From the NCBI GenBank assembly GCA_038380435.1, contig JAWZYU010000025.1, forward strand, positions 50,476,691-50,540,690: 64,000 nucleotides of DNA. Direction: 5' to 3'. The position numbers were made by a program, and so were the translations under genes. The first letter of the stretch is position 1. Each line of letters starts with the position of its first letter. Shown in pieces: positions 31,016 to 46,861 of this stretch. This DNA comes from Ryuthela nishihirai (Eukaryota; Arthropoda; Arachnida; Araneae; Heptathelidae). The notes below the pieces were generated by a model. That model saw nothing but the letters and a program-made list of their open reading frames with translations, made no database searches and was not told where the DNA came from.

Positions 31016-31305
31016 TTGCGAACTCACTACTGAGCTCATTGCTGCCACCAGTGTTGATATTACGGATCATTCACCTATTGAAGATAATGACAAAAGCAAG
31101 TTAAATTAGAGTGGTTTCAAACCTGTTAAAAAGGGATGCAAAAGGCCCTTAAATATAGATATCACTAGTCAAAACAAGGTATTCCTTACTCTTTAACCAG
31201 TGTGCTTCAGAGGAAGAATATGACATAAGTGACAACATAGGAACATCCTCACAAACACAGAAAGTTTCCTCGCTTCAGAAAAAAGACAAAATACCACCAA
31301 TAGTT

Positions 31306-32304
31306 TTGAGGCAACTTAGAAATTGGCTGAACACTCATAAAAAGATGGTTACATTCGCTGTGGAAGCATTTACAGCAAAAAAATCTGGTGAGACAATTAG
31401 AGTCCAAACGAAATGTAACCAAGACCATAGAAGTTTCATAAACTTCTTTGATAAAGAAAAGTTTACTTTTCATACATACCAGCTGAGGTCAGAAAAGAAC
31501 TTAAAGGTGATCATCAAGAACATTCCTGATGACATCACCTGTGAAGAATTGGCTCAGGAATTGTCCGAAATGTGCTTCATGACCCTTAAAGTTTCTCAAC
31601 TTAAGAAATACAGGGAGAAGACTCCCTTACCTATATTTCTCATTGAGTTCGCAAAAACAGATGCCAACACACAGATCTTCAAGCTGACAGATCTTTTCCA
31701 CCTAAAGATCACTGTTGAGTCCTTTCAAAGAAGGAAAGGATCAACACAATGTCACAAATGCCAACGTTATGGGCACACTAATGGTAACTGCTTCAACACC
31801 CTTAGATGTGTCAAATGCACTGGCAACCATCTTAATACTACGTGTGCCAGGACACGCAAGGATGGTTCATCGACCTGTACTAATTGCGGGAAAGAGCACA
31901 TGGCCAATTACAGAGGCTGTGAGCTCTTTCCCAAACTTCCCAATAAAGGAGTACCTTTGGAAAAACCCAAGAAAGGTAAAAATAAGGTATCCCAATATGC
32001 ACAACCCAATAAGACCTACGCACAAGCTACCAGACTTCCTGAAGAGATTCCAGGAAAATCTAACACTGCTCCACCAGATACTAAGCTTTCAGGAAAAGGG
32101 AAGGCCAAAGTTAACGTACCAAGTAAAAAGAGCAAAGCAAATGAGGAGGAAACGTTAGATTTTGCTAATAAAGTTAAAGATATCCTGGAATTCTTCAAGA
32201 AATTGAATTTGGGTAATATATTGCTCAAAGTTAAAACATTTGTCTTAAATTTCAGATGGATAAGGATTGGACTGAGAGAATTTCGTAGGCATCCAATACT
32301 TTGA
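31306..32304 (+). CDS. gag-like ORF1 of a Jockey-type LINE
   Basis: An open frame of 332 codons from the first ATG; the same frame is open upstream to about 31167 without an ATG, so the true start may lie further 5' beyond a frameshift. Residues 60-140 resemble the PRE_C2HC region of Jockey/X-element ORF1 (NLKVIIKNIPDDITCEELAQ). Three CCHC-type knuckles follow: CHKCQRYGHTNGNC (about 147-160), CVKCTGNHLNTTC (167-179) and CTNCGKEHMANYRGC (188-202). After that comes a lysine-rich tail (VPSKKSKANEEETLDFANKV). Such proteins bind the element RNA. No endonuclease or RT frame follows, so the copy lacks ORF2 or is a gag-only derivative. The tail of about 20 residues after KVKTFVLNF may be past a frameshift. 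Confidence 0.85.
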   Translation: MRQLRNWLNTHKKMVTFAVEAFTAKKSGETIRVQTKCNQDHRSFINFFDKEKFTFHTYQLRSEKNLKVIIKNIPDDITCEELAQELSEMCFMTLKVSQLKKYREKTPLPIFLIEFAKTDANTQIFKLTDLFHLKITVESFQRRKGSTQCHKCQRYGHTNGNCFNTLRCVKCTGNHLNTTCARTRKDGSSTCTNCGKEHMANYRGCELFPKLPNKGVPLEKPKKGKNKVSQYAQPNKTYAQATRLPEEIPGKSNTAPPDTKLSGKGKAKVNVPSKKSKANEEETLDFANKVKDILEFFKKLNLGNILLKVKTFVLNFRWIRIGLREFRRHPIL

Positions 32305-39123: not shown

Positions 39124-39201
39124 ATTCACAGGGTGAACTAGGCGCAAACAGAAATCTGAGAATGAGCAAATCGAAACAAAATTCTGAGAATGGACTAATG
39201 G

Positions 39202-39577
39202 TTTGGGTTGGGTTGTTTTACCTCTGAGCGGCACTTTTTTGCACACCATGGGCTAAATGGCCAGGTCACATGGACCCCGAAGGCTCAGAGAAGGTTGGGG
39301 GAGGGGACCCACTGGAACAGCTGTTGGGAGGCAGATGGTAGCCTCCCGTCAAGGCCATCCAGCGTGTTCTTTAACGTGCAAAGGGCCGTTAAGCCGTGGC
39401 CCCGTGCTCTCCCGCACACGGGGCCACGGCTTAACGTCCCATCCGACGGACGGCGGCCTTTCCAAGCCCATCGGTGTCCCCTACTGACCGTGGGCAGGGC
39501 GGGGAATTTTGCGGAGATAAATCTCAACGCTGACCCAGCTGGGACTCGAACCTGGGAACTACAGATTACGAGCCTGG
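39202..39577 (-). mobile_element. SINE1, tail-side part, host of the 7.1-kb element
   Basis: Near-consensus SINE1 up to GATTACGAGCCTGG, where the TIR of the large element begins. Left TSD ATGGACTAATGG at 39190-39201; its partner is at 46742-46753. An extra short inverted copy of GCCGTTAAGCCGTGGCCCCG lies inside the core near 39386. Confidence 0.94.
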
Positions 39578-40732
39578 CCAACACCACCTAGAGGAGAAGG
39601 CCGTACCACTGATTTGTGACGTCAGCATTACTAGACCGGACTGCCGGCAGAATAGATTGAGAGATAGCTTATCCTTGTTAATAGAACTTCCCATTTAGAT
39701 TTTGAATATTCACTAATAAATCATTAAAATAATTTGTTTTCATATAATTAAAAAAAAAATCCCACATTTTTCTAATTTTTTTTTTAGAGATAACTTTTTT
39801 TTTGCTTTGACTAGTATTGTAAACCATTAATTACCGTTTCCGATTATACAAGCTTTAAATTATTATTTAGATAATAACACTCTTTAAATGTTCGGAAATT
39901 TCAAAACTTTTAACGAATTTTGCAAACGATCGATTAATGTATTGAACAAGTACTAAATTTTCACTCTTAAAGGATTCTAGAAGAGCGAAATATATTTAGA
40001 AAAAAACTACTTGTTACAAAATACCACAGATATCTATTTTTTTTCACAAATATGTATGTATATATATATGAGGTCTAAAACATTATTTAATGAAAACATA
40101 TGTTTCAATATTGCATATTTTAAGAAAAACAACCAACAAATTCCACATTAAAAATACTTTTATTTACAATATGAGAAAACAAATATATATAGGATACACA
40201 TTACAATGAAACAAATATTTCATTGTTTACTTTATTTTTAAGAAAATTGTGCAATTAAAACAGGAAAATTCACCAATCATATGGGAGAATTTTTAAGCAA
40301 TATGAAGGAACTTAATATTGTGCAATACTATTTAAATTGAAAAGGAAAATTTTATGATATTCAATTCATCCCTGTTGAACTCTTTTTTTTTTTAAATAGT
40401 TTAATAATGAAAGCTGTTTTTAAAATGCATCACATTAATAAAAACTGTTTCTAGGACAACTATGACTTTTAAATAAAAAGAAAAGAAAAATTGCTTTCCC
40501 AAACTTTTTCACCCTAATGCATATTAAAACTAATTTCTTCACATAACATAGAAATTTTTATCCTTTTTGCTATTATAATAAACTTTAATAATAGGAAAAA
40601 AAAATTCTGAAGAAACATGAAAGCAACATCTAAATACATGTGGTCAAAAGGTTTGAACAGATTCAAAATACAACAGAAATATAAAATACAATGAGTATTA
40701 TACAATGTAAAGGTCACATTGAAATATCCATA

Positions 40733-41432
40733 TACACTCAGTAATTATGAAACCTAATTCCATGTTATGTCAATGGAAAGCTAATTTCAAACCTTTGTAA
40801 CTTTTAAAATGAGCTTTTATGAAAAAAAAATGAAATGAAGATGAATTAAAGATCTCAATCAAATTTATCTAAATCTATGTTCATTAAAAATCAAAGAATT
40901 ATGAAAACTGGGATATTTAATATGAAATAAAATTTAAAATATTGATCTGGGAAGTAGTTGAAATAAGTTAATCTCAAAACAGTATCCCATATTAAATTTT
41001 ATTAGCATAGTTTTAGCAGAAAATGTAACAATTATTTAAATTTTCACCAACTCTGCAGAATGCGCATTACTGTTTAAGATGTTGATATATAGTAAAATAC
41101 CCCTTCAAACAGCTGCTTACAACAGAGGTCTGACATGAGCCTGTAAGTTTATATGCCATAGTAGGTCTGTGAGGATGGCGGAAACTCGGCAGAGAAACAA
41201 CACGAACAACCATGCCTTACCTAGGGCTCGAACCCAGGTTAGTAACCAAGCGAAGCCTCTTTAAATACTAAATGAATATTATTGGAATATAGAAAATTAA
41301 GATAGATTTTTAACTTATATATATTCAGTCATATTTTCCCATGAAATGTTTATTTTAGAAATTACAGAGCTTTGAAATTATCTTTCCATTGACATAACAT
41401 GGGATTGGTTGGTCATAATTAACAGAGTGTAT
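40733..41432. mobile_element. 700-bp MITE with about 60-bp TIRs
   Basis: The left arm TACACTCAGTAATTATGAAA... runs to GGAAAGCTAATTTCAAA (about 40795). The right arm is its imperfect inverse, ending GAGTGTA (41370-41432). TA at the termini suggests Tc1/mariner type. An old SINE2 lies inside. A related left end is at 8823. Confidence 0.8.
41096..41262 (-). mobile_element. SINE2, degenerate copy
   Basis: CCCCTTCAAACAGCTGCTTAC, GTCTGACATGAGCCTGTAAG and a head GGCTCGAACCCAGG followed by a deletion. More diverged than other SINE2 copies. Confidence 0.85.
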
Positions 41433-42181
41433 ATGGGGTAGTTTCATGGCAGCAAACACAGACTTTTATAACACAGAATTGAAAATATTTATGATAATAT
41501 ATTTGTACATACATGTAATAAGAAAATATTTAACTTGTAAAATTTGCAGCTATATATATAATTAGTAGAATTGTAGCATCATCAGCAACTCAGATTTAAT
41601 GACATTGCAAAACTTGAATTGAGTAAAATTAAAGTACTACAAGCAATATATATCAACTATTGAACATTTTACTAACATTGAATAGATAGAATTAGCATCT
41701 AAAATTTTCTTATATTTTTATAGAGGTCAAGCTGTTTCAAATGATTCAGTATACTCCAAATGTGCAAATCAAATTGAAGAATTAAAAAAATATCTAGATG
41801 TCATTTACATAAAGGTTGATGAAGTGGCAAAAATAAACTACACCAGTAGGTTCTTAATAGGCTTCCTTCCCAAAGGCAAGTCGACAAAATAACTTTAAAT
41901 TTGTATGGGGTCAAAAATATACAGAACAGAAAAAAATGTTTTGCTATTTTGTAAAGAGCATATACTTAACATGCCTGGAAACATATTAAATAAAAACATT
42001 ATTCTAATCTTGACCTTCTGCAGAGTTTTTTAAATTTAAGTCATTAACTATTATGCATATCTTAACTGCCATATCTGGTGAAGATGCTTTCAAATGCTAA
42101 GAGCAACAGGGTATATTTCCTTTATAAACAGATATCCTTACACCAAAATTTTAATATTACTTGAACTCACTATCAGTGTGA

Positions 42182-42462
42182 AACCAATTATTAACAAAGA
42201 ACTTGGAGGAAGAAAATATGTATCAGAACCAGTACAAGGTTTCTAATAACATAGTCAATCATCTCCCTCCAAGCAGAAACTGACATCCCCCCAATGATAC
42301 AGAAAACCTTATTGATCTGTTGACCAGGCTAGTTCATAGGCATATCAAACACCCATTGGCAATCACTATTAGAAATTTAAAAAATCCTACATTTGCAAGG
42401 CAGAAGAAGCCACATTTGCAAGGCAGAAGATATGCATATATATTAAAGAAAATCAAGGAATA
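42182..42462 (+). other. Coding-like stretch with one stop, unassigned
   Basis: On the plus strand about 93 codons are open except for one TGA: a first part ending VSNNIVNHLPPSRN, then HPPNDTENLIDLLTRLVHRH and a basic end RRYAYILKKIKE before TAA. That is long for DNA this AT-rich. I do not recognise the family. It could be a captured or decayed gene piece, or chance. Confidence 0.3.
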
Positions 42463-43929
42463 AATTAACTTCCTAAATCTCCCATGGCTTTTACAAAAAC
42501 CAAAGATTGACACTTAAGTTTTCTGCTTATAATGTTCTCAATTTAAAGTAAGGAAGGAAAAATAATATTCAGAAAATTCTATTTGCAGTTTAATGAGTTT
42601 CAGTTGATCATTTCATCCAGAAACTGGTGGTATATGTTCCAACAGAAAATTATAAATTTCATACCCCACTAAATGCATGTATAACAGAAGCAATGAAATG
42701 GATTGGAAAGAAAACCATATACAGTCACATACTGCATCCATACTGAATAGCTGTCCAAACAAAAGCATCCACCCCAAGTATTTGATACATTGATAAAAAA
42801 ATTTAAAGACAACCAAAAATATAATTTATCTTCAGGGGTCCAGCCATAAGAGTATAGTAGGAAGTGAAAATGTTGTGGAATTGGCAAAAGATCACTCAAA
42901 AGTAACACTAAACACAATATTAAGAAAAAACCTACTGACAAGTGCAGGTAGAGATTCCCTTTGATCATAGATTTAGCTACAAAAGACATGAAATCAGTAA
43001 AATAAAAATGAAATAAATCTAGTTGACCCTGTACAGTAGCAAAATATAGTTAAAGGAACTGAAAATAGCTATTGCAGCTTGCATGCAATAAAATTTCCAC
43101 TAAAATATTGCAAAACATTTGACAATAAAGTTAACCAGTTTTTGTGTCTAAAAAACAATGGTTGAAACAATAGCACACCATTCCAAAGGGTTTTCCACCA
43201 TTGTATTCATTGGGCTATAATTATTTGAAGGTGGGTCTATGATGTTGTGGAGACTTTTCCATTACAGTGTATCATTACTTTCCAAAAAGCTTCATGCTAA
43301 CTGATGAAAATGACAACCAGCTATTTTTACCTCCCTCCAAATTTGATATTTCTTAACCTACTTTTTAACATTAGGTACTTTCAGGTACTTGCAGACTAAC
43401 CAAGTACACGAGCAGATGGACAATCCAGAGACTCGTGTAATAAGAAAAATCAAACAGCATGCTTTATAGAAGATCCACGTTCAATTCCTGTGGAAATTGT
43501 TTTCCAGATATTAAAGATGAATGAAGATTAATAATTTCTTTATTTAATTATCTTTATTTAACAGTTTAAAATAAATTATCTGCATTGGGTGAAATTAAGA
43601 CATTGGATTCTGGACTCAATAAAATATTTACTTAAAAATATATTTACTTAAAAATATCAACCACTGATATCAAATTTGTAACATGATTGAGATTACCAAA
43701 CATAAATTTTTGAATTATACTAAATCTCATAAGAGTAATTTTTAAGGTGTGAAATTAGACAATCAGCATTTTGACTTTAACACAATATCAAATTGTATAA
43801 AAATCTTAATATAATTTTCTCAAAGTGAAAGTAACATATACAAATTAATCCACAGTACCTCATTGATTTACTAACATTTAATCACTATCAAACTCCTTAA
43901 GTATTATGATGATAATGAGTATTGTGGAA

Positions 43930-44018
43930 AAATTACCTTGAGCCAGGTGAGATCCAAACACATAACCACCAGACGTAGGGTTACTCGATGCCAGTGTTAT
44001 AAAAGGAGGATATGCTTT
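43930..44018 (-). mobile_element. SINE4-like tRNA relic
   Basis: ACCTTGAGCCAGGTGAGATCC resembles the end of the better copy at 59482-59562 (CCTTGAGCCGGGAGGAATAC). On the minus strand it can be read as a short spliced exon, but the match to a tRNA-type repeat makes that unlikely. Confidence 0.45.
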
Positions 44019-44329
44019 CTTTGTGAAATAAAATAAGTTTTTTCATACTAAGTTTTTTGCCAAGTACTAACAGTTGAGTCAAAAAAATAATACTCATTAA
44101 ATATACTATAAAATATATGGTGCAGTGATTTTTATTCCTATTTCATAAACAATCAAAGGTTATTTCTACTAAAGTGTCATAATGATTAGTAACTATGCAC
44201 TGTCATAAAAGGTAAACTTTCTGTTACTTCAAACTCTGACTGAGGTAGTGGTCAGCAATGATTTCAGTTTTGGGCGTAATATTTTTTTAAAGTGTATTTG
44301 TGGATGCTTTAAAAGTAGTTGAAGAGTAC

Positions 44330-44441
44330 CTCTCCATCAGTATATGGATACTTTAGAGGTCAGAAACACTCTCCCAGTTTTCATGTCAAACATGCTGGTT
44401 TCTCTTTCAACATCAGATGGTGCAAAGTGGAGTTCACACAC
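44330..44441 (-). pseudogene. THAP domain, exon 2
   Basis: The minus strand has an acceptor (TTTTGCATACATAG) and then VCELHFAPSDVERE, which supplies the third cysteine and the histidine (C-x2-H) of the C2CH THAP zinc finger, followed by TSMFDMKTGRVFLTS. In frame it stops soon after, at 44337 (TGA). A frame change near GTGTTTCTGACC would let it run into PLKYPYTDGE and a possible donor (GAG/GTACTC) at 44329. The exon joins in phase 0 with exon 1 only if exon 1 is read past its frameshift. It lies about 1.9 kb from exon 1. THAP domains bind DNA; which partner protein followed is unknown because no later exon was found. Confidence 0.75.
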
Positions 44442-45074
44442 CTATGTATGCAAAAGAAATATTGAGAATATGTACAAAAAACCTCTGATGAATGATAAAC
44501 ATTAAAACAAAAATCCAAACACCAGGAATATTCACCTAAATAACACCAGTGAATATTCACTAAAAAATTTTATTCAGAACTGAAGACTTTTTACCTTCGA
44601 AAGTAAAAGCTATAATTGTATTCAAAACAATTCTATAATCAGTGTATTTTCTAAGATTTCAATAAAAATCCATGGTTAAAAGAATGAATTCTCCCAAGGA
44701 ATGCACCTATTCTACCAGTAAGCTGGTTTTTCTCAATATTTCTAGCACTTCTTTTATCATATATAGTTCACCTTGAAACTAATGCTAACCATCTAATAGC
44801 ATTCCACTGCTAGTACTAACCATAAAGTGCTTTTGGTAATGCCACTATAAGGTGATAATGTAAAATAAAATGCGAAAAATCATACTGAGATGAAAATCAT
44901 TTAAAACAACACTCTTATGAATGAAAGTTTAAAGGTTTGAAATATTCCAGTCCAGGAATTGAGCCTGAAAACAACTCCAGTAATAAGTTTATTGTTTCAG
45001 ACAATTTCCTCTTACTGTAATTTTCAGTTTATTAGGCATAAATTTGTTTATATAGACAGCACCTGGTATTATAC

Positions 45075-45750
45075 TAATGCTGAAAGGTATTAGGAATTGA
45101 TTGGTCAGGAAGTTTACTGTTGTCGACAGTTTCTACAATAAACTTTTACCATTACATATCAGTAAAATCAAAAAACATCAAACTTTTGTGATAATTTTTG
45201 GATTTCTTCAGTTGTAAAATCCAAACCAGTGGTCAGTACAGAGGATAAACTTTGAAGTTAACTAGAAAACAATATTGTATGCATTTGTGGTGTTTAACAT
45301 ATTTATATTCACATAATAGATGAAATGACAGATATCCCCTCAAATATTCTCTAATATGATTATAGAATACATTTGTAACAAAATTAAAACAAAATCTGCA
45401 GTCACATGCAATAAAGATATGACAGTAGACTGTTATACCTTTATTATAATATACCTGACTTATCTCATTTTACAATGAAGAGTGATTGGAAATATATGCA
45501 CTTTTAATTACTCCTTTGAAAGTAAAAAATTCTTTAACTTTACTATTAAATCCTTTTTCAAAATATCCTTTTATTTATTAATCCATATGTACGCTAGATG
45601 TAGCCCACACATTCTTTAATATCCCTATAACTTGACCTGATTTCAGAGATATAATTATGCGGAATAATTTAATGCTGAAAGTTATTAGGAATTGATTGGT
45701 CAGGAAGTTTACTGTTGTCGACAGTTTCTACAATGAACTTTTACCATTAC
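45075..45750. repeat. Direct duplication of 81 bp inside the THAP intron
   Basis: 45075-45155 and 45670-45750 are about 95% identical (TAATGCTGAAAGGTATTAGG to AACTTTTACCATTAC), 595 bp apart. Origin unknown. Confidence 0.9.
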
Positions 45751-45767
45751 CTGTCCTGCTTCTATTA

Positions 45768-45885
45768 AAAAAAATAGCTGTGAGGTAGGCAAAACTTCAG
45801 CAGGAAAATAATACATATTCACAAAGCCATCTCTAGGCTTTGAACATGGGTCCAATTTGTATCCAAGTATACTAGTAATAGCACC
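45768..45885 (-). mobile_element. Possible very old SINE2 relic
   Basis: CTGTGAGGTAGGCAAAACTTC, then CAGCAGGAAAATAATAC and GAACATGGGTCC line up weakly with the SINE2 body and head. Confidence 0.4.
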
Positions 45886-46365
45886 AAAATAATTTCTAAT
45901 ACTTATGCAGAGATTTTATATTTAAAAGTAGGTTTTCCCATGATCTTGCCTTTGGCTTATATATGTATTCCAAGTTTAACAGTATTATCGTATTAACTTA
46001 TACGAGATATATTTGAACTCTATGGATATATAAATATAGTGATATAACATTAGACCCTGAAACTATCCCAACAAAAGTACCAATTTCTTAACTTACTACT
46101 GTAATCTATTAAATAAAAAGTCTGGTCACTGTGAAATATTCTTTTCTATTTAAGCATTTTAGCATATGTACATTCGACATTTTTTATTCCAGCATATTAG
46201 GTTTCTTACTTAATAAAAATAACGTCAAATTAATCCATAACAGATCAATGATATTATATATGTATATTATATAAACGTAACATACAATAGTTAAAACGAT
46301 AATTTTTACTTTAGAAGTTCATAAGTATGACAACAGATATTAATACAGAATAAAGTTCTTCTTAC

Positions 46366-46526
46366 CTTGGATGCTTTCGTTGGACAGAAGTTTTGCCTTG
46401 GTATTGAACTTTCTGAACTTGCCATTTCTGTCGCAAATCGATATCTTCTGGAAATTTAAAAACTGAGAATATTTGCTCCCCATCGTAATTGCTCCTGCAC
46501 TGAGGAACGCAGCAGCGCGATGGCAT
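46366..46526 (-). pseudogene. THAP domain, exon 1
   Basis: The minus strand starts at ATG (46526) with MPSRCCVPQCRSNYDGEQ, then FSVFKFPEDIDLRQKW. It holds the first Cys pair of the C2CH finger and the FP..D..R..W core typical of THAP domains. After W the original frame is lost: the expected IPRQNFCPTKASK lies two bases out of frame, and the junction contains a tandem 8-bp repeat (AAGTTCAG/AAAGTTCA) that explains the shift. The exon ends at a good donor (CCAAG/GTAAGA). Read in frame 0 the peptide ends at the donor TAA. The finger is therefore broken unless the shift is an assembly error. Confidence 0.8.
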
Positions 46527-46559
46527 TTCGCTAAAAAAAATCAATGAACGTAATAACAA

Positions 46560-46665
46560 ACCACACTAAATCATACGTTTTGCCGAACTAGCTAAACACT
46601 AACAAAGGCAAGATGGAGGCGACGCTACTAGCTACGGGTCGACTAAAATTGACGTCATCAGAATC
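46560..46665 (-). promoter_or_regulatory. Putative promoter of the THAP gene
   Basis: Upstream of exon 1 on the minus strand: TGACGTCA (CRE) at 46652, and CCTCCATCTTGCC at 46610-46622, the complement of a YY1-like AAGATGG core often found near start sites. The CRE lies about 55 bp from the TIR end. No TATA box is obvious. Confidence 0.4.
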
Positions 46666-46707
46666 GCTTCACCGACTGGTAAGGCCTTCTCCTCTAGGTG
46701 GTGTTGG

Positions 46708-46741
46708 CCTGGCGCGCTACCGACTGAGTCACCCCCACCCC
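46708..46741 (-). mobile_element. SINE1, head-side remainder
   Basis: CCTGGCGCGCTACCGACTGAG then CACCCCCACCCC continues the SINE1 broken at 39577. The right TSD ATGGACTAATGG at 46742-46753 matches 39190-39201. Confidence 0.95.
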
Positions 46742-46861
46742 ATGGACTAATGGAAACAGAAGTCTGTGGATGAACTGACCGAAAACAAAAGTCCGAGGAT
46801 GAATCCACCGAAAAAAAAACAGTTTTTTTTTTCAATGAAAAGCAGTGCTTGTCATTGAAAT

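Follow-up and report, generated by a model that had tools for sequence, protein, structure and literature searches.

A 64,000-nucleotide stretch of the genome of the spider Ryuthela nishihirai (contig JAWZYU010000025.1, positions 50,476,691 to 50,540,690; the whole stretch is hereafter called the window) carries an element with inverted ends that interrupts a copy of the short interspersed nuclear element (SINE) SINE1. An earlier note on this DNA had described the insertion as a P-like, non-autonomous element with THAP exons and an unusually long interior. The gene of the element lies on the minus strand, so that its right end is the 5′ end of the gene, and its boundaries and immediate surroundings are as follows.

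39579..46706, minus strand: whole element, 7128 bp
39579..39608, plus strand: 3′ (left) terminal inverted repeat (TIR), 24 bp perfect, 30 bp with one mismatch
46677..46706, minus strand: 5′ (right) TIR, 24 bp perfect, 30 bp with one mismatch
39572..39578, no strand: left copy of the target site duplication (TSD), GCCTGGC, 7 bp
46707..46713, no strand: right copy of the TSD, GCCTGGC, 7 bp
39202..39578, minus strand: host SINE1, 3′ portion, to the left of the element
46714..46741, minus strand: 5′ part of the host SINE1 (tRNA-like head)
39190..39201, no strand: left outer TSD of SINE1, 12 bp, ATGGACTAATGG
46742..46753, no strand: right outer TSD of SINE1, 12 bp, ATGGACTAATGG, exact

The perfect 24-bp TIR, CAACACCACCTAGAGGAGAAGGCC, spans 39579-39602 and has its reverse-oriented counterpart at 46683-46706. 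When its first 20 bases were searched for with up to three mismatches, the two element ends were the only matches in the window, and two such matches arose in 0 of 100 shuffles. The inverted ends had previously been put at 25 bp; they are indeed perfect, but over 24 bp, the 25th base belonging also to the TSD. Because GCCTGGC is nearly palindromic, the end of the TIR can be placed one base further out, and we adopted the convention of a 7-bp TSD and a 24-bp TIR. The 7-bp duplication itself was recovered on both flanks. The G+C content of the element was 29%, against 42% in the remaining window, and the exact 24-bp end was absent from the viral sequence collection searched. As the earlier note had also stated, SINE1 is cut exactly at the TIR, and its outer 12-bp TSD is intact on both sides. 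Furthermore, 18 of the 18 other window copies of SINE1 that align in one piece run uninterrupted across the insertion site, one of them with a 7-bp deletion there; this comparison excluded partial matches and the host halves from 36 BLAST hits in all, and its one-piece filter would have dropped copies with a long insert at the site.

Inside the element, the following parts of a transposase gene and of the interior were delineated, some by comparison with a transposase-bearing relative at a locus called C20, described below.

46366..46526, minus strand: THAP exon 1, frame broken by an 8-bp length change; a GT donor follows
44370..44441, minus strand: remnant of transposase exon 2, 24 residues, end of the THAP domain; an AG acceptor precedes
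44312..44345, minus strand: deletion junction, with nearly the whole catalytic exon of the C20 relative missing
39579..44267, minus strand: 4.7-kb A+T-rich 3′ part, common to the family; known domains not found, and no match in the C20 stretches read

The start codon of THAP exon 1 lies at 46526, 181 bp inside the right end. This exon matched the Pfam domain at E = 9.8e-7, and both THAP exons read across the frameshift, bridged with an X, reached E = 1.8e-12; a first joining of the exons that left the frameshift out scored worse than the bridged reading. THAP was the only Pfam domain with a meaningful score in the element, and the P catalytic domain was not found in six read-through frames or in ten short plus-strand fragments. 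A protein database search with the THAP exon returned zero matches. Beyond the deletion junction, a 46-bp match to the region further 3′ of the C20 relative was detected. With a broken THAP exon 1, 24 residues of exon 2 and no catalytic domain found, the window copy conforms to the non-autonomous state proposed for it. The interior that had been thought unusual is indeed long and uncharacterised, but the whole family shows this trait, and it does not set the window copy apart.

The 3.11-Gb genome contains 894 exact copies of the first 22 bases of the element end (417 in forward and 477 in reverse orientation), whereas the reversed control gave 0, and the first 18 bases occur in 1037 copies (493 and 544); an element without further copies is thereby excluded. 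From 21 facing end pairs seen among the 22-bp matches listed, 19 copies were fetched, two having been excluded by a length limit. These copies are 3.6-9.9 kb long, and 19 of 19 align to the window copy, with which they form the set of 20 used below. Seven are near full length and 96.4-97.3% identical to the window copy (L010, L013, L014, L016, L022, L025 and L027), five have common internal deletions (L018 with L021; L011 with L012 and L017), and seven more are further diverged or rearranged, the recurring forms of the family being 7.1, 6.5 and 6.3 kb long. An exact 7-bp TSD flanks 14 of the 19 fetched copies, or 15 of 20 counting the window. At C2:113267396-113268288, five family ends recur at intervals of 217-220 bp, with a transposase piece about 2 kb away, and are perhaps a tandem array of 5′ ends.

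Transposase sequence accompanies the family ends at several loci. Both ends are kept in the fetched copy L026, together with a 7-bp TSD (GTTTAGC) and disrupted fragments of a C20-type transposase. A genome search with the 198-residue transposase piece of L026 gave 151 or more matches, one of which, at C20:56901058, lies in an open frame of 716 residues. At this locus (L066), the family TIR lies at base 324, giving the same 5′ end as in the window copy, and exon 1 (51 codons; THAP, Pfam E = 7.9e-9) splices in phase with exon 2 into an open frame of 767 residues. Exon 2 matched PF21787 (TNP-like_RNaseH_N, 8.8e-15) and PF12017 (Tnp_P_element, 5.5e-5). The protein also aligned to the P-element transposase structure PDB 6p5a (E = 2.9e-10, residues 208-671), pairing the motifs LMMDEIH/LAFDEMK, SIDSVHLLK/FSDTPHLIK and DKLEERFG/DIVEHFFG, which we take to hold catalytic acidic residues. 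The window copy has 2362 bp of 5′ region in common with L066 (93.6%), after which all but 24 residues of exon 2 are missing; over its first 2.3 kb, the divergence of the C20 copy is 0.5% to L018, 0.8% to L021 and 4.2% to the window copy. In addition, an 11,970-bp copy at C24:22855263-22867232 has family ends on both sides, the TSD GCCAGGC and SINE1 flanks, and contains a transposase match of 92% identity at C24:22864179-22864766.

Collectively, our findings support the idea that the window element is, with high probability, a non-autonomous, internally deleted member of a P-superfamily transposon family that makes 7-bp TSDs, and that it was mobilised in trans by cut-and-paste transposition. 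Its P-like nature, asserted in the earlier note, is carried by the C20 copy, in which the same 5′ end accompanies a THAP domain and a P-type RNase H core; the transposase (via this relative), the TSD length and the palindromic target all agree with the P superfamily. Movement in trans is suggested because the window copy is internally deleted and frame-broken, and it is supported by the fact that the frame-breaking 8-bp lengthening of exon 1 is common to six of the 20 copies, the window copy included; L016 shows an additional 2-bp loss in exon 1 that brings an earlier end of the frame. Several observations weigh against this interpretation. The 5 kb read downstream in the C20 copy did not contain its 3′ TIR, leaving the 3′ integrity of that copy unproven, and the 4.7-kb 3′ part of the window copy is without a match in the C20 stretches read. 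The GTP-binding insertion domain PF21788 was not called in the C20 protein but was called in P813, a second P lineage of this genome; the 6p5a alignment of the C20 protein passes through the region of this insertion. One stop interrupts the transposase stretch of the C24 copy, and the TSD is inexact in five of the 20 copies, with one mismatch in L023, L024 and L027, two in L019 and three in L013. The C20 locus represents the autonomous type of the family, and its open copy of the transposase gene is the probable mover of the other copies.

The repeats inside the element were compared with the host SINE1.

41095..41237, plus strand: inner SINE2, 11.9% from consensus; differences common to the family
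45778..45853, plus strand: second SINE2 relic, more decayed; 65% identity over 77 columns, a weak match

The host SINE1 differs from its consensus at 8 of 385 positions (2.1%, gap columns excluded; the 18 other window copies range from 1.0 to 18.3%), and the inner SINE2 at 17 of 143 (11.9%), a significantly greater divergence (Fisher p = 1.4e-5) that bears out the contrast drawn in the earlier note between a near-consensus host and a far-diverged inner repeat. The inner SINE2 is present in 18 of 20 copies, being split in L026 and absent from L009 and L015. With these three excluded, each of the 17 differences recurred in 12 or more of the 16 other copies in the comparison, and they are therefore older than the spread of the family, in agreement with the proposal that the unit moved whole after its inner repeats had diverged. 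The differences may stem either from decay or from an older SINE2 variant. The spread of the family is recent, because its copies diverge little: the eight copies of the 7.1-kb type lie 0.35-1.05% from their majority (in an alignment without L015), and C20 differs from L018 by the 0.5% given above. Such a recent spread is in line with the low divergence of the host SINE1.

Further repeats were noted around these sequences. Inverted arms of about 130 bp (79%) flank the inner SINE2 at window positions 40728-40855 and 41304-41436, and a 123-bp stretch overlapping one of them has a 70.7% match in a P813 element. An 81-bp repeat occurs at 45075-45155 and 45670-45750 with 97.5% identity and imperfect inverted ends (TAATGCTGAAAG/CTTTTACCATTA); among the 20 elements, it is present twice in 14, three times in L011 and once in five. 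The host SINE1 contains, at 39383-39440, a 24-nt hairpin (96% complementary) that is not in the SINE1 consensus, its extra piece being the reverse complement of the immediately downstream sequence, as would be expected from an intrastrand template switch.

Near each end of the element lies an inner box of the same sequence.

39617..39624, no strand: inner box TGACGTCA, bp 39-46 from the 3′ end; candidate THAP site
46650..46657, no strand: inner box TGACGTCA, bp 50-57 from the 5′ end; candidate THAP site

All 20 copies have the bp-50 box, exact in 16 and altered at a single base in four, and the bp-39 box is exact in 19 of 20, the box of L019 lying at bp 58. A match to the box within a single copy was reached by 28 of 2000 shuffles, moderately beyond chance, and its fixed position across 20 related copies is due in part to descent. 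The earlier note had placed a cyclic-AMP response element (CRE) near each end; the box does stand at both ends, but we read the pair as candidate transposase sites. That they are CREs driving the gene seems doubtful, if arguable: TGACGTCA is the palindromic CRE, and one of the boxes precedes the THAP start codon by about 120 bp, whereas the second is found at the other end of the element, away from the promoter, with its distance constant in 19 of 20 copies, and both fall close to the positions of the THAP sites of the P element. According to the available excerpt of PMC3688188, those sites occupy bp 53-63 of the 5′ end and bp 41-51 of the 3′ end; the excerpts of PMC7776569 and PMC3688188 conflict on which P end has the longer spacing, and the coordinates of the latter were used. 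In the Drosophila P element, as here, the inner site lies farther from the 5′ than from the 3′ end, with an offset of 12 bp compared with 11 here. Because this polarity and offset are near those of the P-element sites, the TGACGTCA boxes may be considered candidate transposase (THAP) sites rather than CREB sites.

To describe the target, we tallied the 15 exact TSDs on both strands, which yielded the favoured motif GCYNRGC, with G/C at the outer position in 24 of 30 and C/G at the second position in 24 of 30 of the symmetrised tally; four of the 15 represent one SINE1 site, L020 in the opposite orientation. With these four set aside, the first base is G in nine of the 11 remaining exact TSDs (background 0.21, p = 2.9e-5). 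GCCTGGC is present in the tRNA-like head of SINE1, and in the genome 78 ends follow TACGAGCCTGGC and 81 follow TAGCGCGCCAGGC, so that 159 of the 1037 ends (15%) adjoin a single SINE1 base, which fits a palindromic target. Pairing of ends within 20 kb identified 35 insertions by both of their ends and gave 124 places overall, a count in which ends more than 20 kb apart would appear twice and three C22 places look like one duplication. These three are 4.9-kb copies in SINE1, about 11 kb apart (C22:40707750, 40719159 and 40730191), and are probably one tandem segmental duplication.

Insertions would accumulate at the SINE1 head because GCCTGGC is offered there in very many copies. Of 112 genome ends flanked by GCCTGGC, 78 are in SINE1, and in the window 11 of 17 GCCTGGC/GCCAGGC words are inside SINE1; the two proportions give no sign of an extra SINE1 preference, but the window is rich in SINEs. 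It seems improbable that the transposase or a SINE head occupied by RNA polymerase III steers the family to this one base, and that its non-autonomous copies also produce a THAP-only protein of 80 residues which competes for the ends. Active steering, if it occurred, would make the family a P-superfamily counterpart of Dada, directed to a safe haven. In any case, the many insertions at a single base of a SINE offer a countable natural test of P-type target choice, with the empty SINE sites as internal controls.

These features suggest how the window element may have moved: a C20-like transposase, presumably active, would bind the inverted ends and the inner TGACGTCA boxes and excise the element, which would be reinserted at palindromic 7-bp sites of the GCYNRGC type. 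That the 7-kb unit is instead self-sufficient, or that its 4.7-kb 3′ part encodes something useful, is very unlikely. The 3′ part is largely kept in many family copies, and an open THAP-only frame of 76-80 residues was found in six of the 18 copies that could be spliced by script (18 of 20), L025 among them with alterations at conserved places; set against this, the longest open reading frame of the element, 126 residues, was equalled in 9 of 200 shuffles, THAP is its only Pfam domain with a meaningful score, and the THAP frame of the window copy is broken. Least credible is a THAP piece captured from a host gene by a carrier of another superfamily (hAT, Kolobok, Dada or other), since, although only THAP is recognisable in the window and the solved structures that match it are the cellular THAP1, THAP2 and THAP11 and one hypothetical protein, the C20 copy with the same 5′ end has THAP in frame with a P-type catalytic core, both-ended copies (C24, L026) carry pieces of this transposase type, and the TSD is neither TTAA nor 8 bp long. 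Kolobok, with its TTAA TSD, was rejected on the 7-bp TSD; hAT, with an 8-bp TSD and a hAT transposase, on both TSD length and the P-type transposase; and Dada on the TIRs present here and the P-type transposase of the relative.

As a P-superfamily member, the family of the window element was compared with known systems. It resembles the Drosophila P element in combining THAP with an RNase H core (6p5a), inverted ends of about 30 bp and a palindromic target, and differs in its 7-bp rather than 8-bp TSD, in its end sequence and in its recurring 6-7-kb forms, the non-autonomous P elements measuring 0.5-2.8 kb in the excerpt of PMC7776569. Palindromic 7-bp TSDs are likewise given for Galileo (GTANTAC) in the accessible portion of PMC4168063 and for 1360 (GTTNAAC) in that of PMC3276498; unlike both, the target here is richer in G and C (GCYNRGC), and the Galileo TIRs of 0.5-1.2 kb, as an excerpt of PMC3688188 has them, contrast with 30 bp here. 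Zebrafish Pdre2/THAP9, as far as the consulted part of PMC10983969 describes it, shares a P-type transposase, ends starting with CA and internally deleted relatives, but has a 13-bp TIR and an 8-bp TSD. The repeated use of a single site in a tRNA-like sequence is reminiscent of Dada; however, Dada targets true tRNA and snRNA genes, and its U6 and U1 families are without TIRs in the excerpt of PMC3706591, whereas the present family has a P-type transposase and inserts into a SINE head.

In the open-literature listings searched on P elements (THAP, 7-bp TSDs, non-autonomous forms and SINE targets), no account of this family was found, although a Repbase entry may exist. We judge the window element to be a member of a new P-superfamily family rather than a new kind of element, notable for its large non-autonomous forms and its SINE1 pile-up. 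It allows a view of how a large family of this superfamily, with 7-bp TSDs, operates: an open source gene is accompanied by several 6-7-kb forms that spread in trans. The ends of this family, with their unequal box distances, also show that the architecture known from the fly P element has a parallel in a different P lineage. Should the boxes bind the transposase, this asymmetry of P ends would predate the fly element and have a wider distribution.

Other P lineages reside in the same genome. P813, the source of many of the best genome matches to PF21787, resembles the present family in its P-superfamily transposase and its length (about 9.2 kb) and differs in its ends (CATGGAGGTAGG) and its 8-bp TSDs (CATTTACT, GCACACGC); as the mover of the window element it was rejected on these other ends and on the 8-bp TSDs in the two copies read. 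P813 is a very young P family (L033-L039 and L060-L065, on C13, C54, C58, C6, C23, C24 and C25) with open frames of up to 813 residues, and the stretches read of its C23 and C24 copies are 99.3-99.8% identical. A third P lineage was seen in six copies listed, with open 804-residue frames and identical scores (C6:97262431, C7:65148704, C12:66872646, C22:25204560, C53:2863739 and C129:184189). Elsewhere in the window, positions 31159-32304 hold a 381-residue frame with a PRE_C2HC zinc-finger domain, which looks like an ORF1 of the long interspersed nuclear element (LINE) type.

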